Shown one piece after another: positions 4 through 14,200 of a DNA stretch of 64,000 nt (position 1 is the stretch's first letter; each line of letters starts with the position of its first letter). The DNA comes from an uncultured Prevotellaceae bacterium (GTDB taxonomy: Bacteria; Bacteroidota; Bacteroidia; Bacteroidales; Muribaculaceae). The stretch lies in assembly GCA_947169265.1 (NCBI GenBank), contig CAMVPC010000004.1:1-64000 (forward strand), read 5' to 3'. The notes under the pieces are model-generated. The model worked only from the letters and a program-made list of their open reading frames with translations, did no database searches and was not told the DNA's origin. Both the position numbers and the translations under genes were made by a program.

Positions 4-219
4 TCAAAATAGTCCAAAACTAATTGGCGTGTCCCATTGCGGAAAACAGGAAAGAGTCGATTTGCCACTTCGGCGAACGCCTATCACTACTTGAGCCATA
101 TTTGTGTCAAACTCAAAAAGAGACTCTTCTTTGCGGGCAACCCATTTCTGGGGTTTGTAACTTTTGACTTCTTCTTGTTGCTCGGCAAGGACTTGTAGTA
201 TAATTTTCTCGTCAACCAT
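4..219 (-). pseudogene. ATP-binding protein (DUF4143-type AAA ATPase), N-terminal part, frameshifted at the window edge
   Basis: The 71-residue reading frame starts at an ATG (217-219) and carries a Walker A loop, GVRRSGKST, preceded by FEFDTNMAQVVI. That layout is typical of the DUF4143/ATP-binding proteins abundant in Bacteroidales. The frame stops at 4-6, far short of the usual 350-450 residues. In the neighbouring frame the bases just before the edge read DYFD, which matches the acidic strand expected next in the family. A one-base slip at the A-run 6-9 (T-run on the coding strand) would explain the stop. The gene continues beyond the left edge, so it could be a true pseudogene, a sequencing slip or a contig-end artefact. 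Its promoter is at 255-262, and it lies directly downstream of the hsdR remnant. Confidence 0.6.
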
Positions 220-359: not shown

Positions 360-440
360 TTATAAATAATACCGTATCTCCTGCTGCTCAAACAGCTCCA
401 TGATGGCCATCTCCAACGCATGTTCGTTAAAGTGTGACAT
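360..440 (-). pseudogene. hsdR: Type I restriction enzyme R subunit remnant (first 26 codons)
   Basis: Starting at the ATG at 438-440 the minus strand encodes MSHFNEHALEMAIMELFEQQ, then six more residues and a TAA stop. This is the hallmark N-terminus of Bacteroidetes HsdR proteins, which normally continue for 900-1000 residues with a PD-(D/E)xK nuclease and helicase domains. None of that follows: the next bases are AT-rich non-coding DNA and then the ATPase promoter. The start codon lies 5 bases after the stop of the preceding membrane-protein gene, so the operon order hsdM-hsdS-two genes-hsdR is preserved up to the break. The identity is recognised from memory of the family. The truncation is directly visible. 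Confidence 0.75.
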
Positions 441-444
441 AATA

Positions 445-1131
445 TCATTTCTTTATTCTAACAGACATAAAATTAACCATACTACTAATAATCCTTATCG
501 TGTTGTAAAACACTTCTATCATATAGTAACATATTAAGAATCTGACAATAATTATCAATAGTATCTTCCCGAATGTCAATATTGAGGGTATCGTTATTGG
601 AACGAACGTATAATCTGCAATATCAACTCTAAAGAATTCGAAATACATCACATTAATACATATTAAGGCTAAAGCCCATATGCCAACAATAACACTCTTA
701 CCAACTAAAACATTGAACTTCTGAACATAGTAAAAAGATTGTTTTTGCCATAGCTTTTCTCTGGCATTCTCAAAAACAACTTCATCAATTGAGACTTCAA
801 TATTCCGAGTTTGTTCATTTTCCGCTAAATCTAATTTATAATCTCCACTTCTTTTCTTTGGTGGCATATAGAACTTGTCTAAAGCAAATACTAATGCTGT
901 CAAAAATAGTCCAATTAAAATGGCTAGAATAGAAGCACCCAATTGAAGGAATTCATTATTATATCCTTCAGAAAGCGAAAAAAGCACAAACACAGTTAAG
1001 GGATAAGCAAGTAAAAACCTACCATTCCTACGAACAAAGGATTTCCTTTGATTATTTATGTCTAAGGTTTCACTTTCCCGTGCCTTGGAATAAACAAAAT
1101 GAATAAATGAGTGTTCTATATTAGGCTTCAT
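445..1131 (-). CDS. Unknown four-helix membrane protein inside the type I RM operon
   Basis: I do not recognise this family. The 228-residue product has four probable membrane helices at about residues 39-54, 62-84, 141-164 and 184-206. A charged stretch of about 55 residues (86-140) lies between helices 2 and 3. The ATG at 1129-1131 is preferred. An in-frame TTG four codons upstream would give 232 residues. The start overlaps the end of the 344-residue gene by 11 bases and the stop lies 5 bases before the hsdR start, so the gene is translationally embedded in the operon. Base composition is strikingly AT-rich compared with hsdM. A membrane effector paired with a soluble sensor is a common design in abortive-infection systems, but that role is inferred only from position and topology. 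Confidence 0.7.
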   Translation of the reverse strand: MKPNIEHSFIHFVYSKARESETLDINNQRKSFVRRNGRFLLAYPLTVFVLFSLSEGYNNEFLQLGASILAILIGLFLTALVFALDKFYMPPKKRSGDYKLDLAENEQTRNIEVSIDEVVFENAREKLWQKQSFYYVQKFNVLVGKSVIVGIWALALICINVMYFEFFRVDIADYTFVPITIPSILTFGKILLIIIVRFLICYYMIEVFYNTIRIISSMVNFMSVRIKK

Positions 1132-2155
1132 TGTTTTGCTCAAATAAATCGGGTCTTATTTCTGGCAATACTTCATCTTGAAAGAGATTCTGACAAAGCT
1201 GATTAAGTTCATTAAATTCCGGAGTGTCATCATCATTATAGTGATTGATACGTCCTTCAAGATATACGACAGGAATTACATTTAAGTTTTCATCGTCAAA
1301 ATCAAAGGTTCTATCAGTTTTTGAGAAAGGACTATTTAACGTCATTTTCTTCCTGTCAAAACTTGTTAGTCCTTCTGTGTTATGTCTATGGCGAGTAAAC
1401 CCCAGTTGACCTAAAAGATTCCCGATTTTTGATTTTTCTGTCAATGAAATGTCTCCGTCTTTAGGCTTTATCTCTATTTTGACATCATACAATTGTTGGT
1501 ACGTTCTCATACCTTCATCTGTAAATACTTCGTCTCTATAAGTATTGCTAAACTCCACAGACTTAATTATAGCCTCATTTTGAAACTCTTCTTGGAATGA
1601 TTTTGGACAGAACATGTTTAGAGCTGGGCACTTATAATTTCCCCCTTTAAAAAGTTTCTCAATATAAACTTTAAATATGTCTGTAATTGTTTCTTCTTTA
1701 CTATTGGAATGTATTATAAAGCACCCTTCACTATGATCTAATGGCAAATATAAAAGGAAATAGTAATAGCGAAGGATGGTCTTATTCTTGCCAAACGCAT
1801 TCGCATCTTCTGCATTTGCGGAAGAATCACTCATCATTCCATCACGTCCAAATCTTCCTCCATTGATTACTCCATATATGATATTCTCTTGAACATTAAC
1901 AACAGGTTTGTTCGCTAAGTGCTTATTAGAAGCCGTTTTTATTAGTTTAAGTTGTTTCTTAATTCTTCTATCTTTTGCGATATCAGTTACTAAGCCATTC
2001 ATAAAATGGTCAAACAATTTATTCATTATTTGGGCATCCGAACTTGGACGACGTTGGTACAACTCTTCGATTGCGAAATCACGAAAGGTTTTATACTCTA
2101 AATCTTTTGACACTAACTTTAGTGTATAAAATTCCAGTTTTGGTCTTAAAGCCAT
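1121..2155 (-). CDS. Unknown soluble 344-residue protein inside the type I RM operon
   Basis: No family is recognised with confidence and no signal peptide or membrane helix is seen. The N-terminal third is helical and Lys/Arg-rich. Around residues 90-105 is a strand with the motif IIYGVINGGRFG. At about 128-145 a second hydrophobic strand region (YYYFLLYLPLD) is followed by CFIIHS. The C-terminus is acidic. The ATG is at 2153-2155, 11 bases after the hsdS stop, and the end overlaps the membrane-protein gene by 11 bases, so hsdS and both unknown genes are probably co-transcribed and the two unknowns co-translated. The codon content is AT-rich like its partner, suggesting the pair was acquired together. 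It may be an accessory defence or anti-restriction-sensing protein. No catalytic motif could be picked out by eye. Confidence 0.7.
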   Translation of the reverse strand: MALRPKLEFYTLKLVSKDLEYKTFRDFAIEELYQRRPSSDAQIMNKLFDHFMNGLVTDIAKDRRIKKQLKLIKTASNKHLANKPVVNVQENIIYGVINGGRFGRDGMMSDSSANAEDANAFGKNKTILRYYYFLLYLPLDHSEGCFIIHSNSKEETITDIFKVYIEKLFKGGNYKCPALNMFCPKSFQEEFQNEAIIKSVEFSNTYRDEVFTDEGMRTYQQLYDVKIEIKPKDGDISLTEKSKIGNLLGQLGFTRHRHNTEGLTSFDRKKMTLNSPFSKTDRTFDFDDENLNVIPVVYLEGRINHYNDDDTPEFNELNQLCQNLFQDEVLPEIRPDLFEQNNEA

Positions 2156-2166
2156 ATTCTTTATCT

Positions 2167-3255
2167 TTATTTATTTTGCCCCATCTTCGCCAAAAGCAAA
2201 GACTGTAAAACCGTTAATATCTCAATTTCTTGTTTTTTTATTAAAATAGCTTGATAGAGAGTTTCTACCTTTTGCGAGAAATTCATACATACTTCTTTAG
2301 CAGGTATCATTATCTCAAATGGCTCAACATTGTTTATTGTAATTTGAGCTTGAGCAGACCCCGAACGTAAAGACATCGTATCGGAATCAAGCAGATGATA
2401 ATATAAATAGTCTTTTGTTGCCAAGTCTTTTGTTTCTATTGCAATAGCAAGGTTTGATAAAAAACATTCTTTCGGTGACATGCATATTTTTCCTGTTCCT
2501 GCATCACCACGAGCAATAATTATTATTGTTGGTTCTTTTAATGTATATTCGTTTGTATAACCAGTGACAGCATAACCACTGAATACGGGATAAGGATACT
2601 TGTCGCTTTTAGAATGTTTATCTGCAAGTTTCCCATATTTAAAGGTTGCGACTTCTCCCAGGGTTCCCATTCGCCAGCCGGTGGGGAGGTTTTCTTTGTC
2701 GATGTTGTCGACGAAGGTTTTGCGGTAAAGGGCTTGGGCGGTAGCTTCGAGATGCTGAATCATTTGATTGTTGAGACGGATTCGGTTGGTCAGCGTTTCG
2801 TATTCAGCCACAATCTCTCGTTGGCGAGTGATGGAGGGGATGGGGAGTTGCATATTGCAAAAGTCTTCCCAAGTCAAACTGCCACGAACACCACCTACTG
2901 CATAGTAACTGGCTTCACGGTCAAACTCACTACGAGAGAACCACATCATCAAATATTGAGGCATCAGTACCGTCTTATCGATGACTTCAAACATAGGATA
3001 GGCTGGCGACATGATAGCCTCATCTTCTTCAAACATAGCAATAGGCATTTTCCCGTCTCGGCTCACCTGCATCAAACTGCAAGCAAATTGTTCTCTTTGG
3101 ATAACCTTATAGTTAGAAAGGTCTGTGCCGATGACATTAGCCACCGACGGAATGAATGCCTTGTCAATTGTAAGACCAACAAGTTTCGTAACCTTTAGTT
3201 CCCGGTTACGGACATTCACCTCTCTGATATAGTCGCCTAATCGCTGATATTCCAT
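2167..3255 (-). CDS. hsdS: Type I restriction-modification specificity subunit S
   Basis: HsdS supplies DNA recognition to the HsdM2S methyltransferase through two target-recognition domains (TRDs). The 362-residue product shows the expected order: TRD1 at about 1-145 ending in LPIPSITRQREIV, a helical conserved spacer at about 145-185, TRD2 at about 190-330 beginning GWRMGTLGEVATFKYGK, and a second helical spacer to the C-terminus. It is slightly shorter than the usual 380-430 residues. The DNA is a mosaic. Coding for TRD2 (about 2190-2640) is AT-rich like the downstream unknown genes, whereas the central spacer (about 2645-2850) is GC-rich like hsdM, suggesting TRD exchange. The gene starts 60 bases after hsdM. 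No second hsdS, recombinase or inverted repeat for shuffling is seen nearby. Confidence 0.9.
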   Translation of the reverse strand: MEYQRLGDYIREVNVRNRELKVTKLVGLTIDKAFIPSVANVIGTDLSNYKVIQREQFACSLMQVSRDGKMPIAMFEEDEAIMSPAYPMFEVIDKTVLMPQYLMMWFSRSEFDREASYYAVGGVRGSLTWEDFCNMQLPIPSITRQREIVAEYETLTNRIRLNNQMIQHLEATAQALYRKTFVDNIDKENLPTGWRMGTLGEVATFKYGKLADKHSKSDKYPYPVFSGYAVTGYTNEYTLKEPTIIIIARGDAGTGKICMSPKECFLSNLAIAIETKDLATKDYLYYHLLDSDTMSLRSGSAQAQITINNVEPFEIMIPAKEVCMNFSQKVETLYQAILIKKQEIEILTVLQSLLLAKMGQNK

Positions 3256-3315: not shown

Positions 3316-4878
3316 TTACAAACTATAGCCCAATTTCTCAAAGAGGTCTTTCAACTGCTGTTTGCTCTCTTCTTCCTGTTGCAAGAGGTCGCGCATGTCT
3401 GCTTGCAATTGCTTCATCTTAGTGTCGAAATCAATCTGCTCGTCACGGTTGCGGAACTCGATGTACTTGCTGGGTACGAGGCTCCAGCCTTTCTTCTCTA
3501 TCTCGTTGAGGGTAGCAGAATAGCAATATTCGGGCTCATTGTGATAGGTCTGTTCATAACCCACACGCTGCCAGTTGTGAAAATTATCGGCAATCTGTTG
3601 TATCTGCTCCGTAGAAAACTGGATGTATTTCTTCTCGAATGGCTCTCCCCACTGGCGTAGGTCGATGAACAGTACTTCATCTTCGCGATTGCGATAGCGC
3701 ACCATCTTGCCGTTCTGCTCCACTGTGCGGGCTTTCTTGTTATTGTTCAGAACCCAAAGCGTCACACTGATGTCCGTTGAATAGAACATGTTCCGAGGCA
3801 AAATAACTATAGCCTCTACCAAATGGTTTTGAAGCAGTTGCTTGCGGATAGCCAACTCAGTGCCGTCACCACTCAATGCTCCGTTGGCCAAGAGGAAGCC
3901 TGCAGTACCGTTGGCAGAGAGCTTAGATACAATGTTCAGAATCCAACCATAGTTGGCGTTGCTTGTAGGAGGCACGTCGTAGCCAGCCCAGCGTGGGTCA
4001 TCCTTCAGTTCGTTCTCGGCTCGCCAAGCCTTCTGGTTGAATGGTGGATTTGCCATGATAAAATCAGCCTTCAGGTCTTTATGCTGATCGTTATGGAAAG
4101 TATCGGCAGCCATCTCACCCAGGTTGCAGGCAATGCCACGAATGGCAAGATTCATCTTCGCCAGTTTGTAGGTGGTGTTGGTGTATTCCTGTCCATAGAC
4201 CGAGATGTCGCGCTTGTTACCATGATGCGCCTCAATGAACTTCATGCTCTGCACGAACATACCGCCAGAGCCGCAACAAGGGTCGTATATCTTACCACGA
4301 TAGGGCTCAATCATCTCGGCTATCAGGTTTACGATGGTCTTGGGTGTGTAATATTCGCCCTTACCTTTGCCCTCGGCAATGGCAAACTTGCCTAGGAAGT
4401 ATTCATATACACGACCGATGAGGTCGTTCTCTGGGTCCTTTAGCGTATCAATTTTATTGATTTCATCAAGCAATGCCGCAAGCTTTGTACGGTCGAGCGA
4501 CAGGCCTGCATAGTAGTTGCTTGGCAAGGCACCCTTCAGCGTAGGGTTGCTCTGCTCCACCTTAGCAAGTGCCTTGTCAATCTTGATGGCAATATCGTTT
4601 TGCTTGGCGTTCTCAATCAAGAAATCCCAACGACTCTCGGGTTCCAGATAAAATACGTTTTTCGCATTATAGAACACTGGATTGTCGGCAAACGCCTCCT
4701 TACCATCGACTATAAGTTCATTGCGTCGCTCGGTGAAGCGATCGTGCGCATATTTCAGGAAGATAAGGCTTAGTACCACATGCTTATACTCCGATGGCTC
4801 CACGGAGCCACGGAGTTTATTGGCCGATTCCCACAAAGCTTCTTCTATAGCCTTTTCTTTAATTACTTTCTTTGCCAT
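3316..4878 (-). CDS. hsdM: Type I restriction-modification DNA methyltransferase subunit M
   Basis: This is the N6-adenine DNA methyltransferase of a type I system, using S-adenosylmethionine. The 520-residue product has an N-terminal helical HsdM domain (about 1-150), the EYYTPKTIV segment that opens the methyltransferase domain (175-183), the SAM-binding motif DPCCGSGG at 199-206 (Cys-Cys where many family members have Ala-Cys) and the catalytic NPPF at 277-280. The C-terminal part ends in a glutamine- and glutamate-rich coiled coil (about 480-515) that would contact HsdS. All key motifs are intact, so with HsdS it should still methylate DNA although hsdR is broken here. It is first in the operon, with a possible promoter -7 box at 5019-5026. 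Confidence 0.95.
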   Translation of the reverse strand: MAKKVIKEKAIEEALWESANKLRGSVEPSEYKHVVLSLIFLKYAHDRFTERRNELIVDGKEAFADNPVFYNAKNVFYLEPESRWDFLIENAKQNDIAIKIDKALAKVEQSNPTLKGALPSNYYAGLSLDRTKLAALLDEINKIDTLKDPENDLIGRVYEYFLGKFAIAEGKGKGEYYTPKTIVNLIAEMIEPYRGKIYDPCCGSGGMFVQSMKFIEAHHGNKRDISVYGQEYTNTTYKLAKMNLAIRGIACNLGEMAADTFHNDQHKDLKADFIMANPPFNQKAWRAENELKDDPRWAGYDVPPTSNANYGWILNIVSKLSANGTAGFLLANGALSGDGTELAIRKQLLQNHLVEAIVILPRNMFYSTDISVTLWVLNNNKKARTVEQNGKMVRYRNREDEVLFIDLRQWGEPFEKKYIQFSTEQIQQIADNFHNWQRVGYEQTYHNEPEYCYSATLNEIEKKGWSLVPSKYIEFRNRDEQIDFDTKMKQLQADMRDLLQQEEESKQQLKDLFEKLGYSL

Positions 4879-5130: not shown

Positions 5131-6099
5131 TTACACAGTGATTAGCTTCAAGATTTGCTTGACGGATTGCCTGACATAATCGCTTGGTGGGATGGGGCGG
5201 AAGGCGAGCATTCCCAGTTCTTCCTCGTAACGCTTGCTTAATGGCACCCATAATGAGTCGAATGAGGTCAATAAGGGGGAAGTGGAGATGTCGGCACTTG
5301 GCCATTTGGGCGGAGTGCTGAAGGTGGCTTTGTCATGTTGGATGAGTTCTTTCAACTCTGTCAGGAAGTCTTTGGCAAGATATTCTTGGCAAGCGTTGTC
5401 TTGCGAAAGGAAATGCAGGTCGTAGAAATGGCGAATCTTCTTGCCCAGTTCCATCGCTGGGTTGTCACCAAATGAGAAGCGCAACAGCGAAGCCACTTTT
5501 TCGCACAAAGTGCGACGAAGGTCAAGGATGTTGATTTCAAACGGTTGAAGCCCAAAACCCACGATTAGCCGGTCGTGACCTTTTATCTGTAGTGCTTGGG
5601 CGATAAAGCTTGACACAGGCCGTCGCTCGTATGGGTAAGGGTTGGCAAAGGAGTTGATCTCCACAATGACATGGTCGCCAACTAATGCTTTTTCATTGCT
5701 CATGGCAATCACGCTTTTGTAGCGATGGTATGTTTTGCGGTATCTCGACCCTTTGCTCGTTTCCCCAGGTATATCAACCTCGGTCATGCCTTCAGTCATT
5801 AGTTTTGTCGCAGTTGAGAGCAAGTTTTTGATTTTATTGCCGCTCATTTCGCCGGCTATCACAGCGACATCAATATCACTGGAAAACCGGTCTATGATGC
5901 CATATCCTTTTGACAGAGATGTGCCACCCTTCCACACCACATGGGGAGCTAGGGCAGATTCGGATAAACGGCTTAACATTTTCGTTATCCAGTAGTCTTT
6001 TTCGACGTAAATTGGTGAGATGTCTAAGGTTTCCGATGCAAGGCGGATGGCATCGGCGAATTGTTCTTTATGCTGGTCAAGGGTCATTTGATTTTCCAT
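5131..6099 (-). CDS. abiEii: AbiEii-type nucleotidyltransferase toxin
   Basis: Toxin half of a type IV toxin-antitoxin/abortive-infection pair. The 322-residue product has the DNA polymerase beta-type nucleotidyltransferase signature: KGGTSLSKGY at about 57-66 followed by DIDVAV at 75-80, the metal-binding aspartates. This matches the COG2253/AbiEii family (about 300 residues), whose characterised members transfer nucleotides onto tRNA or other acceptors. The start is taken as the ATG at 6097-6099 (MENQMTLDQH), because the longer open frame upstream runs inside the antitoxin gene. It overlaps the antitoxin by 16 bases, the usual AbiE arrangement giving coupled translation. It lies just upstream of the type I RM operon on the same strand. 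Confidence 0.9.
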   Translation of the reverse strand: MENQMTLDQHKEQFADAIRLASETLDISPIYVEKDYWITKMLSRLSESALAPHVVWKGGTSLSKGYGIIDRFSSDIDVAVIAGEMSGNKIKNLLSTATKLMTEGMTEVDIPGETSKGSRYRKTYHRYKSVIAMSNEKALVGDHVIVEINSFANPYPYERRPVSSFIAQALQIKGHDRLIVGFGLQPFEINILDLRRTLCEKVASLLRFSFGDNPAMELGKKIRHFYDLHFLSQDNACQEYLAKDFLTELKELIQHDKATFSTPPKWPSADISTSPLLTSFDSLWVPLSKRYEEELGMLAFRPIPPSDYVRQSVKQILKLITV

Positions 6100-6809
6100 T
6101 GTTGGGAGAACGATAAAACAGTTTGTGAAATGCCGTAGTTGTACGAACTGATTGGATTCAGTCTGTCCCGTAATGCACTTAAGTCTAATTTGCAGCCTAT
6201 TTGTTGTAGCAACGCTCCGAGTAGAGCGATGACCCTTGGAGGATAGAGCAGTGCCATACGCATTAACGCGTTTATTTGTCGTTCGTTCAACTCCGACAAT
6301 AAAACCAACATTCGGGCACAAGATTTATCAATGCTTCTGTCTGGGATTGATTTGATTGACTTAATCACATCAAGCAGTTGAAGCAGGTATATGTTCGCTT
6401 TCGTTATCTCATTTCTCTGCAAAACAAATCGAATCTCGGTATTTCCCCTTCGTGTCTTGCTGCGCTTTGTGTTAGAACCGATAACTATGATGTTTGGAAT
6501 CTGTGAAGTCAGCCCAAGTTGGTTGTACACGCTATAGTTTGTGAGATAGCCGATAATCTTGCCATTTTTCACCAAAAGGTCCTTCACGACCTCCTCAACC
6601 GACGGATTAAGGGCGCCAAATATGCTTTTCTTGGGCTTGAAATATCTCCCTTTCGAAAGTTTGGAGATCACCCCGCTTTCAGCTAACCGATTCAGTTTTT
6701 TGATGACGTTGGCACTATCCTCGGCAGTTAGTCCCAGGTCACGATAGGTAAAGACGAAGTCCACCGGGATTTCGCTAACTATCTGCTCTATTTTCTTTGC
6801 GGTTGTCAT
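6084..6809 (-). CDS. abiEi: AbiEi-type antitoxin (DUF6088 family regulator)
   Basis: First gene of the AbiE pair. The 241-residue product begins with a winged-helix region (about 1-60, with FTYRDLGLTAEDSANVIKKL and a GVISKLSKGRYFKP wing) followed by the AbiEi/DUF6088 C-terminal domain. In characterised AbiE systems this protein represses its own promoter by binding inverted repeats and neutralises the toxin without forming a stable complex. That is family knowledge, not shown here. The ATG at 6807-6809 is 21 bases from a TATCTTTG promoter box at 6830-6837. The stop overlaps the toxin start. Confidence 0.85.
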   Translation of the reverse strand: MTTAKKIEQIVSEIPVDFVFTYRDLGLTAEDSANVIKKLNRLAESGVISKLSKGRYFKPKKSIFGALNPSVEEVVKDLLVKNGKIIGYLTNYSVYNQLGLTSQIPNIIVIGSNTKRSKTRRGNTEIRFVLQRNEITKANIYLLQLLDVIKSIKSIPDRSIDKSCARMLVLLSELNERQINALMRMALLYPPRVIALLGALLQQIGCKLDLSALRDRLNPISSYNYGISQTVLSFSQQWKIK

Positions 6810-7535: not shown

Positions 7536-7997
7536 ATGGCAGATTATACTGTTTCATATAATATTAAGACAAATACCTTTAACACGATACAACAGCTTAC
7601 AGAGCTGGCTCGTGTCGCTGGTAAGATGCACAATGCGGCAAATCAAATTAATAAAGTCACGTTAGCAATTGAACAACTGAATAAAGCATGTGCAGGTTCT
7701 GGAAAGGGAATTGCTATTTTCTTGTCTATTTGCCCCACTTGCGCCTTATCCTCCAAATTCTATCAAAAATTTTTCTGTGAAAAAGTGCGATTATTTATGC
7801 CGAGTGGGCGAGTGGCTTCGGCGTTTACGCCAATGTTACGGAAAATCTTCTGGTTATCGGCCGAAACGGGCTTCGACGACATTGACGACATATTCGCCGA
7901 GTTCCTCAAGCTCATTGACCATGTCGACATAGAGTGTGCCGAGCGAATAGTCATATTCGTTATCGTTCACCTTACTCACGTTTTCGCCGGTGAGTAG
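7536..7997 (+). pseudogene. Probable truncated phage-like gene (N-terminal part only)
   Basis: The frame opens at an ATG with MADYTVSYNIKTNTFNTIQQ, followed by a helical stretch to about residue 52 (NQINKVTLAIEQLNKA). That resembles the start of phage tail or tape-measure-like proteins. From about 7715 the frame loses protein character, and from 7854 it runs antisense over the end of the Na/Pi cotransporter gene. I take it as a gene front cut off by recombination at about 7700-7750, with the remaining 80-odd codons being accidental read-through. The family guess is weak. A genuine short gene with a degenerate tail cannot be excluded. Confidence 0.4.
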
Positions 7998-9539
7998 CTC
8001 TTGCTGCCGGTTGATTTCGTTCTCAAGGCGATAGCTGTCGCGGATGTCGTGCTCGGTGCGATAGCCTTGCATCACAATGTTCATTTGGGCAAGAGCCTGA
8101 CCGCATAGGTCCATCATCGCCTGCAGTTGCGTGGTTTGGTGTGGGGTGAAAGTCCTGGCGGCTTGTTGCTTACGGTCGAGCGTGCGAGCCAGTTTCGAGC
8201 ATGCGTCACCAATGGATTCCAGTTCGCTGATTTCGCGTATCATCTGACGAATCTTTTGCTTCGTCTCGTCGCTCAGGTGGCCGTCGCTCACCTGGGCGAG
8301 GAACCGGGCTATTTCAATCTCAATGCGGTCGGTCGTGTCCTCTTCGTGCTCTATTTTGCTCAGTAGCGCTGAGAATTCTTTCTCGTCGGTTATGGTGAAT
8401 AGCTCGCGAACCATGCCGAACATTCGCTCGACACGCATGGCAAAGGCTGTGGTCTCTTTTTGGGCCTGAAGGACGGCGATTTCGGGCGTTTGAACCAAAT
8501 TCGATTGGATGTATTCCAGGCGGAATTCTTCTTGGGCGTCGCCTTTGCCGGGCAATATCCAGCACACCACGCGTTTCATTTGAGGCACAAAACCAAGGAG
8601 AATGGCGGTGTTGATGACGTTGAAGCACGTGTGGAACATGGCCAGCACCACAGGCAAGCGCTCGGTTTGGCCGCCTGCGGCCGGGTCATATCCCACCAGG
8701 TGGCACACCATATTGACAAACGGGTAGAACACAATGAGTACCCACATCACACCGAAGACGTTGAAAAGCAAGTGGGCCATTGCCGCACGGCGCGCTTGCG
8801 TGTTGGAGCCAAGCGCGACGAGGTTGGCGGTGGCTGTTGTGCCGATGTTCTCGCCCATCACCAGCGCTATGCCCAAGTAGATGGGTAACACCCCCGTGGA
8901 ACATAGCAGGATGGTGATGGCCATGACCGCCGCCGATGATTGCACGATGCAGGTGATGAGCGTGCCTATGGCTAGGAAGGCCACGATGGTGAGGTGGCTC
9001 GAGTTGTCAAACGAGGCAAAGAACGAAATTACGGCCTCGTTGTGCTCCAAGTCCATCGCCTTGCCCGTGGTGTTGAGCATTACCAGCGACAGGAACATGA
9101 AGGCGGTGCCAAACAGGAAGTCGCCCACATAGCGGTGGCGTTTCTTGTAAATCAGCACCATACCTATTATGAACGACGGATAGACCATGTTGGTCAGGTC
9201 CACGTTATAACCCAGCGACATAATCCATGCCGTGAGCGTTGTGCCTATGTTGGCGCCCATGATGACCGAGATGGCCTGGGTGAGTGTGAGCAATCCCGCC
9301 GACACAAAAGAGACGGTCATTACCGTGGTGGCCGATGATGACTGCACGGCACAGGTGACGAGCATTCCGGTCAGCATGCCGGTCAAGCGGTTGGTCGTCA
9401 TTCGGGCCAGAATGTGTCGCAATTGTGGTCCCGCCATCTTTTGCAGCGCCTCACTCATCATGCGCATGCCGTAGATCAATAGGCCCAGAGCCCCGAGCAG
9501 TTGTAGCGCAATCATTACATAGTTTTGGTTTGTTTCCAT
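7854..9539 (-). CDS. Na/Pi cotransporter family protein (NptA/PhoU fusion)
   Basis: Inner-membrane sodium-dependent phosphate transporter. The 561-residue product has two inverted Na/Pi-cotransporter repeats, marked by QSSSATT at 66-72 with MGANIGTT nearby, and by VQSSAAVM with MGENIGTTATA in the second half, embedded in about eight to nine hydrophobic helices (residues 1-310). The last 200 residues form a PhoU-like helical domain (acidic and Arg-rich, ending VVNVVEARFGR) thought to regulate uptake. Length and order match the family. Its stop marks the boundary between the accessory region and the core region to the right. The promoter box is at 9559-9566. Confidence 0.92.
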   Translation of the reverse strand: METNQNYVMIALQLLGALGLLIYGMRMMSEALQKMAGPQLRHILARMTTNRLTGMLTGMLVTCAVQSSSATTVMTVSFVSAGLLTLTQAISVIMGANIGTTLTAWIMSLGYNVDLTNMVYPSFIIGMVLIYKKRHRYVGDFLFGTAFMFLSLVMLNTTGKAMDLEHNEAVISFFASFDNSSHLTIVAFLAIGTLITCIVQSSAAVMAITILLCSTGVLPIYLGIALVMGENIGTTATANLVALGSNTQARRAAMAHLLFNVFGVMWVLIVFYPFVNMVCHLVGYDPAAGGQTERLPVVLAMFHTCFNVINTAILLGFVPQMKRVVCWILPGKGDAQEEFRLEYIQSNLVQTPEIAVLQAQKETTAFAMRVERMFGMVRELFTITDEKEFSALLSKIEHEEDTTDRIEIEIARFLAQVSDGHLSDETKQKIRQMIREISELESIGDACSKLARTLDRKQQAARTFTPHQTTQLQAMMDLCGQALAQMNIVMQGYRTEHDIRDSYRLENEINRQQELLTGENVSKVNDNEYDYSLGTLYVDMVNELEELGEYVVNVVEARFGR

Positions 9540-9963: not shown

Positions 9964-11151
9964 ATGAAGCCATTACAAGAAAAATTGTCGCGCTATCAAG
10001 AGCCTCAAAAGGCGAAAGCCGCTGGTATATACCCCTATTTTAGGGCCATCTCGAGTGAACAAGACACCGAGGTGCTCATCAATGGGAAAAAAGTGCTGAT
10101 GTTCGGCTCGAATTGCTATTCGGGCCTTGTAAACGATCCGCGCCTTAAAGAAGCCGCCATTGAGGCCACCAAAAAGTATGGTACCGGTTGCGCGGGTTCG
10201 CCTTTCCTTAATGGTACGCTCGATATCCACAAGGACCTGGAACGTAAGCTCGCCGCTTACGAGGGCAAGGAAGATGCAATGATTTATTCCACGGGATTTG
10301 AGGTGAACCTGGGCGTAGTGAGTGCGCTCACCGGTCGCGAGGACTACATCCTGTGGGACGAGCAAGACCACGCCTCAATTATCGAGGGCCGTCGGCTCTC
10401 GTTCTCCAATTCGCTCAAGTACAAGCATAACGACATGGCGTCGCTTGAGCAACAACTTAAGCGTTGCGACCCCGATAAGGTGAAACTCATTGTCACCGAT
10501 GGTGTGTTCTCGATGGAAGGCGACGTGTGTAAATTGCCCGACATCGTTGACTTGGCCCATAAGTATAACGCCAGCATTATGGTCGACGAGGCTCATGGCA
10601 TTGGCGTCTTCGGCGAAGGCGGGCGCGGCGTGTGCCACCATTTCGGGCTTGCCGACGAGGTGGACTTGATTATGGGTACGTTCAGCAAATCGTTCGCTTC
10701 GCTGGGCGGCTTCCTGGCCACCGACAGCATCATCACCAACTTCCTGCGACACCACTCGCGCAGCTACATCTTCACGGCAAGCATCACGCCGGCATCGACG
10801 GCGGCCGTGAGCGTGGCGCTCGATATCATGCTCAACGAGCCCGAGCGTCAGGCCCACTTGTGGGAAATCACCAATTATGCGCTTGAGGGATTCCGTGCAA
10901 TGGGATGCGAAATCGGTGCCACCGAAACCCCCATCATTCCACTCTTTATTCGCGACAACAACAAGACGTTTGCCATTACCCGCGACTTGTTGCTCGAGGG
11001 TATCTTCGTCAATCCTGTTGTCTCGCCCGCGGTGGCGCCCACCGACACGCTCATCCGTTTCAGCCTCATGGCCACCCACACGCGTGAGCAAGTCACTGTG
11101 GCTCTCGAGAAGATAGGCAAGGTGTTCCGTTCCTACGGCCTTATTCCCTAA
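9964..11151 (+). CDS. spt: Serine palmitoyltransferase (alpha-oxoamine synthase)
   Basis: PLP-dependent enzyme joining serine and a fatty acyl-CoA to 3-ketosphinganine, the first step of sphingolipid synthesis in Bacteroidales. The 395-residue product has the alpha-oxoamine synthase fold: GSNCYSGL at 48-55, GTGCAGSPFLNGT at about 73-85, the cofactor-binding VDEAHGIG at 207-214 and the lysine that binds PLP in GTFSKSFASLGG (Lys242). The length agrees with bacterial SPT. Close relatives (8-amino-7-oxononanoate synthase, 2-amino-3-ketobutyrate ligase) are the alternatives, but the N-terminal RAISSEQDTEV style and the organism favour SPT. It is transcribed alone, ending in the palindromic terminator at 11179-11224. 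Confidence 0.9.
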   Translation: MKPLQEKLSRYQEPQKAKAAGIYPYFRAISSEQDTEVLINGKKVLMFGSNCYSGLVNDPRLKEAAIEATKKYGTGCAGSPFLNGTLDIHKDLERKLAAYEGKEDAMIYSTGFEVNLGVVSALTGREDYILWDEQDHASIIEGRRLSFSNSLKYKHNDMASLEQQLKRCDPDKVKLIVTDGVFSMEGDVCKLPDIVDLAHKYNASIMVDEAHGIGVFGEGGRGVCHHFGLADEVDLIMGTFSKSFASLGGFLATDSIITNFLRHHSRSYIFTASITPASTAAVSVALDIMLNEPERQAHLWEITNYALEGFRAMGCEIGATETPIIPLFIRDNNKTFAITRDLLLEGIFVNPVVSPAVAPTDTLIRFSLMATHTREQVTVALEKIGKVFRSYGLIP

Positions 11152-11178
11152 CGAGCTCAAAAAAGATAGTCGAAAAAC

Positions 11179-11224
11179 TATATACCCAAAAAGCCCCTCA
11201 CGTGAGGGGCTTTTTGGGTATATA
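11179..11224. terminator. 46-base perfect palindrome, bidirectional terminator
   Basis: The two halves are exact reverse complements around 11201/11202. They contain CCCAAAAAGCCCCTCAC and its mirror, flanked by TATATA/TATATA. The 23-base stem has A-runs on the left arm and T-runs on the right, so it can terminate both the plus-strand spt transcript and the minus-strand C10 protease transcript that converge here. Confidence 0.9.
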
Positions 11225-11236
11225 TCGTCTTGGCGG

Positions 11237-14200
11237 TTAGAAGACCACTTTCTTGCCGTCGACGATATAGATGCCTTTGCCGGGTCTTGTCACGCGTTGT
11301 CCGTTAAGGTTGTAGTAAACGCTTGGGGCGCAGGCCGGTTGTTCATCAATAATGTCGTTGATGCCCGAATGGGTGTCGGTGCTGAGGCTGATCGACAACT
11401 TCGAAGCCGGGGTTGGAGTGCCTATCGGCATGAAATAAGCGCGGAAGGGACTTACCGATTGGGCGCCGGGCACAAAGGCAGCGCCTTCGCTATCAAGTAC
11501 ATATATGTTTTCACTACTGCTCAGTCCTGTAAATGTGCCCACCATCTTGTAGTCGCGTCCGGTAATAATTGCCTTGGCTGTAGCCACTTCAACCTCATCG
11601 GCGCTGAATGTGATGGGGGCGTTTGTGAGCGACTTGCCGCTGCTTGTATTTGCCGGGACGCCCAGCAGATAGGGGTGGCACGGCATCAGTGACGACTCGG
11701 GAAGCCCATATTCCATGGTGTTGTCGTTTTCATATTGGTAGGTGGCAAGCATGATGTCGCCCTTGTTGTGGTCGGTGTACCACTTGAGTGGCGTGGCAAC
11801 GCCATCGATGGTCGCCTGGCAGGATGTGGCGGCGAATGGCAACACGATGGTGCTCCATCCTTTCATGCCTTTCAGGTCAAAAGTGGCCTCGGCGGTGCGG
11901 GTGTAACTGATGTGATGGGCATTGAAATTGATGGGGCAATAGAACGGGAGACCGTCGGTGAGCTTGATGTTTTCGGCCTGCTTGCCTTTGATGATGTTGT
12001 CGCCGGTGAGTTTGCTGTAACTCTCGGTGATAATTATCATGTTAGGGTTGGCCGAGGTGTTGAGGCTTGTCACAGGGGCTGAATTCGTGAGCTTCACAGC
12101 GCACACCGTGGCGTCGGGTTGTAACGTGGACGTCAGGCGATGGTCGGTGGCATTGCCCTGCGCGTCGTAGGCCGTATAATAAGATGCTACAGAATAATGC
12201 GTGGTCCCGTGATCTTGCTCAATCTCCTGTTCTCCTTTCATGTACATGGTGTAAAAACTGTACTCAAGCGCGCCTATCAGCTCGGGTGACTCGCGATGCA
12301 GGACCACAGTTGTGTGTGGCGGAATGGTCTCTTTCTTTTGGGATGTCTCAGTGTCGCTGTTTTCTCCAATCCATTTGATGCAGTTCACATAAATGTCACC
12401 TTCGTAGGTCTTGTCGCTGTTGTTGGTTACCGTAACATCGAGTTTTGCACGAGACGAGGGAATCTCGGTGCCCTCGGCATTGGTGACCTTGTGGGTGATG
12501 GTAAGGTCGCAATCGTCGGTCGCTTCGCTCTCGACAATGGTCACACTGCCATTATAGAGTTGGTCATTTGCGCTCACGTTGTATTTCAGCACACCGGCAG
12601 TCTTGGGAGTGTAAGACAGTTTGATGGTAGCTGTCTCGCCCGGCTTCACGTCACAACCAAGGGCGTTGAGCCATTCAGAGGAACCATCCTTGTCGTAGCT
12701 CAGTCCCAAGTTGCCGTGGTAGGCTCCGGTGCCTTCGTTGTGCACGGTGATTGTCACTTCGCAGGGCTTGTTCACAATGGGCGTGGCGGGAGTGAATTGG
12801 ATGTGTTTCAGTGTCAGTTTCGGGTCGTTCGACACCGAGACGGCAGTGAGCTCTCTTTTTGCGTGGTCGAGGTGTATCGTGACATAATGGTCCTCACTAC
12901 CTTCGTCAAGTTGCCATTCATCGGCTGTCTTCAGCTTGCTGGTGAAGTAGAGCTTGTAGTCTCCGTCGGTGAGGGCACGGTCGGTTTCGGGATTGAGATA
13001 GATGGGCTTGGAGTGGTCGTCAAAGCCGTCGTCGGGCTTAAAGTTCGAGGGATCCCATTTGAAATCTCTTGTCACGCTGCCGTCGTTTTTCACAAGTCTG
13101 CTCCCCAAGTCAAATTCTGCGGTGATGCTGTTGAAATTATAACTATTCATGACCGGGAACACGATGTATCCGTTTTCATAATAAGGGCTGCGGCTTTCGT
13201 TGCTTCTTTTGTTATATTCGCCCGACTCGTCGGCACAAAGTAATTGGTTCTTTAGCACCGTGAGTCTGGGGGTGTTCGACAGTCCTTCGTCGGGCCGCAC
13301 TCCGAAGAGCGCTATTTGGTCAAACGAGAACGAGTCACTACTTGTTTCGGCACCCTGCTCCTTCGGATCCATGAGCACCACTTTGTAATAGCCGTCGCTC
13401 ATGCCGCCCCAGCCCCAATTCACATGGAAAAAGTCTTCTTCGTCGTAACCATCGACCACAAAGGTGTGTCCGGCAGCGGTCGCGGTGCCGCTGAACAAAA
13501 CCGGGCGGTTGGCCTGCAGCTCGGCATAGAGCATATCAATCCATTCATCGTAGCTGTGCTGGCGGCGCCACTCTGTTTTGGCGCTCGCGTCATATCTAAA
13601 ATATTTTACCATAGCCTCCAGGGCGCTATGGACGGTTACTGCCGTCTCGGTAGCGTAGTTGGCTTGTGTGGCCGTTCCCAAGTATATGAAAAGGCGCGCC
13701 ACTTCGGTACCGTCTTCGCCAAAATTATAGGTTGGATAAATTTTGTCCCAGTTGAATGTGGTAGCCTCCAGAGCTTCCAGGGTAGGGTAGTTGGTCCCCT
13801 GTGAATTGTCGGGTGTGTAGCCCGGGATAGGCGTGCTGACCTGTTGGGGCCATTTGTGGTAGTACATCACTTGTGCCATGGCCGTGATGGTGCAACCCGT
13901 AGCGGCATGCTCCTTGCCTACTAAGGGGCAACGGTCGTTGTAAGGGGCGTCTTGGTTCCACTTACAATCGAGCATTGGTGCGATAGGTGTTTTGACGGCA
14001 AAGCGCCCCGGAGCGCGCTTCGTTCTGGCGACGTTACCATTCCCGGTGGCACTGGTGCTTGCGACGTAGCTCTCAAGCCATGCCCGCATGTTGGCGGGCA
14101 TCAGTTGCGCGTCAAAAGTGCCATGGTCGCAGTAACCGATGATTTCATCGGTCAAGTCGTTGCCGCCCACCAGCACAAAACCTTCATTGTTGCCCAGGTT

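Follow-up and report, generated by a model that had tools for sequence, protein, structure and literature searches.

A two-gene module recurring beside unrelated restriction-modification systems in Bacteroidota is a candidate anti-phage device

INTRODUCTION

What are two AT-rich genes doing inside a type I restriction-modification (RM) operon, between hsdS and the start of hsdR, and do they belong to that operon? The question is raised by an uncultured Prevotellaceae bacterium (GCA_947169265.1; assembly of 2.9 Mb, 95.6% complete), of which we analysed the first 64 kb of contig 4 (CAMVPC010000004.1, bases 1–64,000), hereafter called the window. A preliminary description of this DNA had proposed that the two genes, here named A and B, encode a soluble sensor and a membrane effector that ride on the RM operon and watch its enzyme. 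The relevant features of the window are as follows.

360..440, minus strand: hsdR remnant, the first 26 codons and then a stop (stop included), no restriction subunit; recognised by its match to the HsdR of a relative
445..1131, minus strand: gene B, open frame of 228 aa, membrane protein with four spans in most relatives, proposed effector
1121..2155, minus strand: gene A, open frame of 344 aa, soluble protein of an undescribed family, proposed sensor/activator
2167..3255, minus strand: hsdS of the host type I RM operon, 362 aa; Methylase_S, E 1.4e-24 (Pfam)
3316..4878, minus strand: hsdM of the host operon, 520 aa; N6_Mtase, E 3.4e-99, and HsdM_N, E 1.2e-19 (Pfam)

RESULTS

A and B lie in a type I operon that retains only a remnant of hsdR

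Gene A follows hsdS, which ends at 2167, after 11 bases; A and B overlap by 11 bases (1121–1131); and the stop codon of B is separated by 4 bases (TGA-TATT-ATG) from the ATG that opens the hsdR remnant. Both frames exceed chance, since the longest stop-free run among 500 mononucleotide shuffles of the 1711-base stretch is 175 codons. The G+C content of B (0.31) and A (0.34) is below that of hsdM (0.48) and of the window (0.52). Coordinates and hydropathy thus bear out the overlapping soluble and membrane genes of the preliminary description, together with its 11-base gap after hsdS. Its remark that the two genes are more AT-rich than hsdM also holds, but the AT-rich stretch already begins within hsdS, the 3′ half of which has a G+C content of 0.33; the 4-base gap that it placed before hsdR is real, but leads only into the remnant.

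In the remnant, 22 codons match residues 1–22 of the relative's HsdR (82%), and the contig ends 359 bases past it; contig 4 ends at window base 1, so nothing is visible beyond. With the relative's full HsdR as query (E ≤ 0.001), no matching hsdR was found elsewhere in the assembly; apart from the remnant, the query hit only another protein, on contig 28, in two short stretches (37% and 29%). A complete set of hsdM, hsdS and hsdR is therefore missing, with hsdR reduced to 26 codons, and because only the remnant and the contig 28 matches were found, the host operon is without its own HsdR in this 95.6% complete assembly. The type I system of the window looks methylation-only.

Two neighbouring features were also recorded. 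Near the contig edge, after the hsdR remnant, a fragment (4–219, minus strand) appears by eye to be a short P-loop ATPase and matches no Pfam family at its cut-off. Upstream of hsdM lies an AbiEi/AbiEii-type toxin-antitoxin pair (5131–6809, minus strand; AbiEii, Pfam E 1.3e-31; AbiEi, PADLOC E 5e-50), which places the operon in a small defence cluster.

A is a soluble protein and B a membrane protein, and neither reaches a family cut-off

In a simple hydropathy analysis of 15 alignment rows each, hydrophobic segments are absent from every A, and B shows four of them in 11 rows, three in 3 rows and five in 1 row. The window copy of B gives three segments at the threshold used, with the first span just short of it, so that the designation of B as a four-helix protein rests on its relatives; it is accurate for most of them and not for the window copy. 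Both termini of window B are positively charged (8 K+R and 4 D+E at the N-terminus, 4 and 0 at the C-terminus), the central loop is slightly positive (11 K+R and 9 D+E), and the two short loops are negative. This charge pattern suggests that the ends and the central loop would be cytoplasmic.

In Pfam and NCBIfam, no model matches either protein at its curated cut-off. PADLOC and PHROGs, which come without curated cut-offs, return nothing for B, and for A nothing in PADLOC and a single match, of E 0.009, in PHROGs. Single scans of the seven A proteins that formed the initial alignment give no E better than 0.014. Among five divergent A proteins none reaches a Pfam cut-off, and no PADLOC match of divergent A proteins (four rescanned plus one more) is better than E 0.05; three divergent B proteins likewise reach no Pfam cut-off and give nothing better than E 0.05 in PADLOC. 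Profile searches of the PDB with A, B and C, a third gene described below, yielded nothing credible, the best match (E 0.058) being a designed protein. The earlier failure to assign A and B to a family is accordingly reproduced across these libraries.

Several candidate relationships were set aside. A relation of A to the PADLOC candidate PDC-M04B was rejected: one of 7 members matches, at E 0.014, and PDC-M04B genes in other genomes are about 165–190 aa, half the length of A, with no match in the window's genome. Two matches below cut-off, of the A protein of locus L037 to PFU (E 7e-4) and of B to CASP_dom (E 8.8e-4), were taken as chance, and profile comparison showed no relation between A and C.

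A is conserved along its length. In the divergent alignment, the only positions invariant in all 17 rows are G95, G100, L263 and P295, and in B only L69 is invariant in all 16 rows; none of these residues is polar. Judged from the alignments, the lack of an invariant polar residue in either protein would fit a sensor and a pore better than an enzyme. Charged positions of A, for example D26, K67 and E332, are kept in 14–15 of 17 rows, which leaves room for an active site.

A and B recur as a pair under purifying selection

Counting the window's own genome, protein searches found A in 7 of 397 genomes of the family and in 2 of 395 of the phylum, and a profile search found it in 7 of 395 genomes of the class. 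A collection of genome contigs contains relatives of A at 16 loci at least, the count being a lower bound because the contig scan needs a conserved peptide. These 16 loci, 7 stretches from the class and family searches and the window make up the 24 loci examined. All belong to the Bacteroidota, which are common in the gut and rumen and to which the sensitive profile search was confined, among them Prevotella sp. P6B1 (L012) and Pedobacter foliorum (L018); many are metagenome bins, and L012/L013, L014/L015 and L021/L022 are near-duplicates in A-B.

In all 16 contig-collection loci, B directly follows A on the same strand (blastp). Among the further 7 loci, B passes its profile in 5, including L036, where an internal stop divides it in two; at L038 and L040 an ORF of 180–182 aa, without support from the B profile, overlaps the end of A. 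Gene A is thus followed by B in 23 further loci, 21 by similarity and 2 by position and size only, and recurrence as a pair, which the preliminary description had named as a check, is confirmed by this survey. The spacing between A and B ranges from −20 to +25 bases over 22 loci (L036 and L038 left out), and in all 23 loci compared A-B has a lower G+C content than its flanks, the difference being just 0.01 in L018 and L037. A search of 119 family genomes with the B profile gave matches in 3, each of them an A carrier. By eye, the copies in L016 and L039 lie among housekeeping genes. The two genes keep together as far as tested, but to judge from these two copies not always in the company of defence loci. 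In L036, the single internal stop breaks B (7918–8700, minus strand) and A is open.

Both genes are under purifying selection. Specifically, dN/dS is 0.03–0.09 for A and 0.08–0.16 for B. These values come from pairs whose dS is finite, though often close to saturation, and leave out, for A, the near-identical pair L014/L015. Between the window (445–2155) and L010 (10001–11711), nucleotide identity is 99.9% in B and 87% in A, a contrast that points to recombination inside the pair or, as both sequences come from incomplete assemblies, possibly to chimerism. No A was detected in scans of viral contigs, in plasmid searches with three A proteins or in a phage search with one A protein. Among the matches listed from the open-licence PMC literature, no paper on the pair was recognised by its title or the opening of its abstract. 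Taken as sequence evidence, these data support A and B as an apparently undescribed unit that recurs as a pair.

An overlapping pair with patchy distribution and a G+C content below its flanks might be a toxin-antitoxin or addiction module, in which B would be a membrane toxin and A its inhibitor, so that loss of the locus would kill the cell and RM or mobile islands would be stabilised. We regard this as very improbable: A is large and conserved throughout, some standalone copies sit among housekeeping genes as judged by eye, and no toxin-antitoxin family is reached at cut-off.

A-B lies beside at least five unrelated kinds of RM system

The surroundings of A-B were scanned for methyltransferase motifs in ORFs of at least 120 aa within 6 kb of the pair at 23 loci, with twenty 20-kb regions at round coordinates on six A-B-bearing contigs as controls. 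N6 or C5 motifs (NPPF/NPPY, PCQ) are present at 10 of the 23 loci, or 11 of 24 with the window's hsdM, and a DNA methyltransferase was found by motif in 0 of 20 controls, a comparison compatible with plain island sharing because the controls were picked by coordinate and not from variable islands. According to Pfam, two control ORFs with DPPF are not methyltransferases, nor are the SPPY/DPPY ORFs of L035 (SEFIR/TIR) and L039 (oxidoreductase). In L037, Pfam gives two methylase ORFs missed by the motif scan, which brings the count to 12 of 24; the figure to be compared with the controls remains 11, since these were Pfam-scanned only at the two motif ORFs. Conversely, no methyltransferase was found within 6 kb at 13 of 24 loci by motif, or at 12 of 24 after the Pfam result for L037. 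A DNA methyltransferase thus accompanies A-B much more frequently than it turns up in the controls. L035, a locus without a methyltransferase, may have another defence neighbour in its SEFIR/TIR-domain protein (10572–11792, plus strand; Pfam E 6e-12 and 2e-11), which is encoded 0.6 kb downstream of A-B.

The counted partners, which Pfam or near identity to the window's HsdM allowed us to name, are of unrelated kinds: type I, type ISP/IIG, EcoRI-type with GmrSD/HNH, Sau3AI-like and BpuJI. In particular, the partner is a type I system in the window, L009, L010 and L038; an EcoRI_methylase followed by a GmrSD_N-HNH protein in L011 and L036 (by Pfam in L036, the L011 protein being 81% identical); Type ISP and Eco57I-type enzymes in L018; an HSDR_N-Eco57I protein with an M.Eco57I-like one in L020; a MutH-type nuclease with a C5 methylase in L023; a BpuJI nuclease, Vsr and two C5 methylases in L040; and an N6_Mtase in L012. 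At least five unrelated RM chemistries are thereby represented, spread over the A tree, although the loci are not independent, with the window, L009 and L010 forming one clade. In L038 the hsd genes are on the other strand, so that A-B stands beside and not inside the operon. The comparison of L011 (7800–11711) with L036 (8697–11830) shows methylases 76% and nucleases 81% identical and A proteins only 26% identical, from which it follows that two distantly related forms of the module have been carried by one and the same RM operon.

The type I operon of the window offers a complementary view. Three relatives with hsdM at 91–92% protein identity (L059–L061) have no A-B and carry other genes between hsdS and hsdR; the contig of a fourth, L058, stops past hsdS. 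By eye, the gap in L059–L061 contains metallo-beta-lactamase-like, (small) membrane and AbiH-like proteins in varying combinations. The interval between hsdS and hsdR serves as a slot for cargo, of which A-B is one example.

These neighbourhoods bear on what A-B might do for its partner. The preliminary description had tied the pair to the type I operon and had it watch the RM enzyme; such a guardian would sense damage to or inhibition of the neighbouring enzyme, for example by anti-restriction proteins, and arrest the cell. The embedding of A-B in the type I loci of the window, L009 and L010, and the presence of two A versions in one M.EcoRI-like plus GmrSD/HNH operon, speak in its favour. 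We nevertheless consider it quite improbable, given the five or more unrelated chemistries, the many loci in which no methyltransferase was found within 6 kb (13 of 24 by motif, 12 after Pfam) and the window itself, where HsdR is lost and A-B is still open. The wider survey therefore supports neither attachment to type I operons nor supervision of the RM enzyme.

The same methyltransferase-free loci, and controls compatible with island sharing, could also be explained by an ordinary membrane or envelope function that comes near RM genes through shared variable islands and has no role in defence. This we find highly improbable, since A is patchy (7 of 397 family and 7 of 395 class genomes, own genome included), the RM association appears on more than one branch of the family and often places A-B within the operon of its partner, and no non-defence family, a match to which would have spoken against a defence role, was reached at cut-off as far as tested.

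A third gene of the NA37 family accompanies the pair in part of the family

At 9 of 24 loci (L018–L024, L034 and L037), B is directly followed by a third gene, C, of about 340 aa. The C protein of L024 belongs to NA37 (PF04245; E 2.2e-25, 90.2 bits against a cut-off of 24.6, residues 14–324 of 340), and that of L018 has no Pfam match, yet is 39% identical when aligned to the L024 copy. Only these two of the nine were scanned with Pfam; the remaining seven were assigned from alignments, from a six-member profile (L034 and L037) or from identity in position and in the start of the sequence (L022 with L021). Sequence downstream of B extends only 0.7–1.6 kb in L010, L011, L016, L017 and L040, so that in those five loci C would have been missed only if non-adjacent. 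No NA37 match was found in the window's genome. Three other genomes (L025–L027) have NA37 genes without A-B, which identifies C as a recruited family.

DISCUSSION

Our analysis reveals two protein families, outside the four libraries searched, whose genes are repeatedly found together in Bacteroidota next to restriction systems of at least five unrelated kinds. A-B is a good candidate for an undescribed anti-virus device, because it travels as a unit and recurs beside unrelated restriction systems.

The reading we favour, which we hold about as readily as we would its denial, is that A-B, with C where present, is an autonomous anti-phage module recruited repeatedly into RM loci and working in the manner of RexAB. 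Its observed basis is the pairing, the gene order, the hydropathy, the purifying selection, the RM neighbourhood and the C gene; from these we infer a defence role, sensing by A, an effector function for B and some way in which C takes part. A-B would form a second layer of defence, for infections that get past restriction. Soluble A would detect a product of infection, either a phage protein or a DNA-protein intermediate, and would then activate B, which would cross the inner membrane about four times. B would make the membrane leak, growth would stop and the infection would be aborted. The NA37-type C protein, in the part of the family that has it, would presumably couple detection to DNA.

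A different use of the same parts would be a new class of DNA surveillance anchored at the membrane, with B holding A, and C where present, at the inner membrane, and the complex seizing unmodified or replicating foreign DNA as it enters. The module would then associate with any RM system available, because the host's methylation mark or the ends cut by restriction would set its trigger. We think this distinctly doubtful.

L011 and L036 constitute a natural experiment, in which the same RM operon carries two versions of A that are 26% alike. If the module is defensive, it raises the question of why restriction loci repeatedly recruit one membrane module, some of them adding a nucleoid protein.

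Comparison with known systems

The hsdS-hsdR interval of type I operons is known to carry cargo genes, RloA/RloB and similar. A-B occupies the same slot, and in L009 shares it with FRG, Mrr_cat and others; it differs from the known cargo in standing also beside other RM types and at loci without any RM gene found. The NA37 family (37-kD nucleoid-associated protein) is represented by genes that occur without A-B, and here supplies a third gene after A-B at 9 of 24 loci.

Kiwa provides the main rival to the RexAB-like reading. In PMC12904381, Kiwa is described as a membrane tetramer that anchors DNA-binding dimers and works by binding DNA at the membrane. By analogy, B would be a membrane sensor or anchor, and A, with or without C, would bind incoming phage DNA and block its replication and transcription without killing the cell. 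The layout is the same, an approximately four-span membrane protein with a soluble partner of similar size (KwaB ORFs, 293–356 aa), and the C protein of L024 falls in a nucleoid-associated family. Like A-B, some Kiwa genes are found near RM genes, in their case as judged by eye; in three genomes (L089, L094 and L095) they lie directly beside hsdS-like ORFs, which suggests that Kiwa too has been recruited to RM loci. We still judge a Kiwa-like mechanism unlikely. There is no profile relation: A has no Pfam match to KwaB (PF16162), hhalign of A against KwaB gives E 0.25, a score reached by 3 of 20 shuffles, and of B against KwaA E 0.3, whereas hhalign does recover distant relatives within the A family (E 3e-35) and the B family (E 3e-17), and the KwaB profile finds solved KwaB at E 4e-26. 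The gene order is reversed, KwaA preceding KwaB where both are seen, and DNA binding by A would be an assumption of the analogy. A-B also differs from Kiwa in the NA37-type third gene that part of its family has.

RexAB, the system on which our preferred reading is modelled, is the closest tested model for a pair with no evident enzymatic motif, a membrane partner of about four spans, the soluble gene ahead of the membrane gene, and RM systems as recurrent company. As reported in PMC12894663, soluble RexA of P. putida binds DNA, and its overexpression lets four-span RexB damage membranes and stop growth; the paper counts only five described systems of this type. Lambda RexA has an RdgC-like fold, according to PMC11077077. 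Sequence homology between the systems was sought by profile comparison and not found. For A and RexA, profile comparison gives E 0.83 with a single sequence and E 0.13 with a shallow profile of 4 RexA rows; two weak collinear local matches were seen, the better of them no higher than shuffles (4 of 40 column-shuffled profiles reach it). For B and RexB, E is 0.065 and 0.042, with probabilities of about 1% (1.3% for the latter).

The likeness is thus one of design. In both lambda RexA/RexB and P. putida PP_5643/PP_5644, as in A-B, the soluble gene comes first and the membrane protein, of about four spans, second; the A-B family matches this layout with four segments in 11 of 15 B rows and three in the window. 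In the tested cases set out in PMC12894663, the soluble partner triggers the membrane effector, a step for which A-B is a candidate by analogy. The soluble sensor with a membrane effector, as first proposed for the window, is the best mechanistic reading of the pair, and RexAB is its tested precedent. The two systems differ in length (A, 344 aa, against 279 aa for lambda RexA; B, 228 aa, against 144 aa for RexB), in the third NA37-type gene that A-B has at 9 of 24 loci, and in setting, the described RexAB systems being borne by phages or prophages and A-B being linked to RM and not seen in phage records. On present evidence A-B would work like RexAB, membership of that type being a further claim; if it is defensive, it would be the RM-linked counterpart, in design, of the RexAB type.
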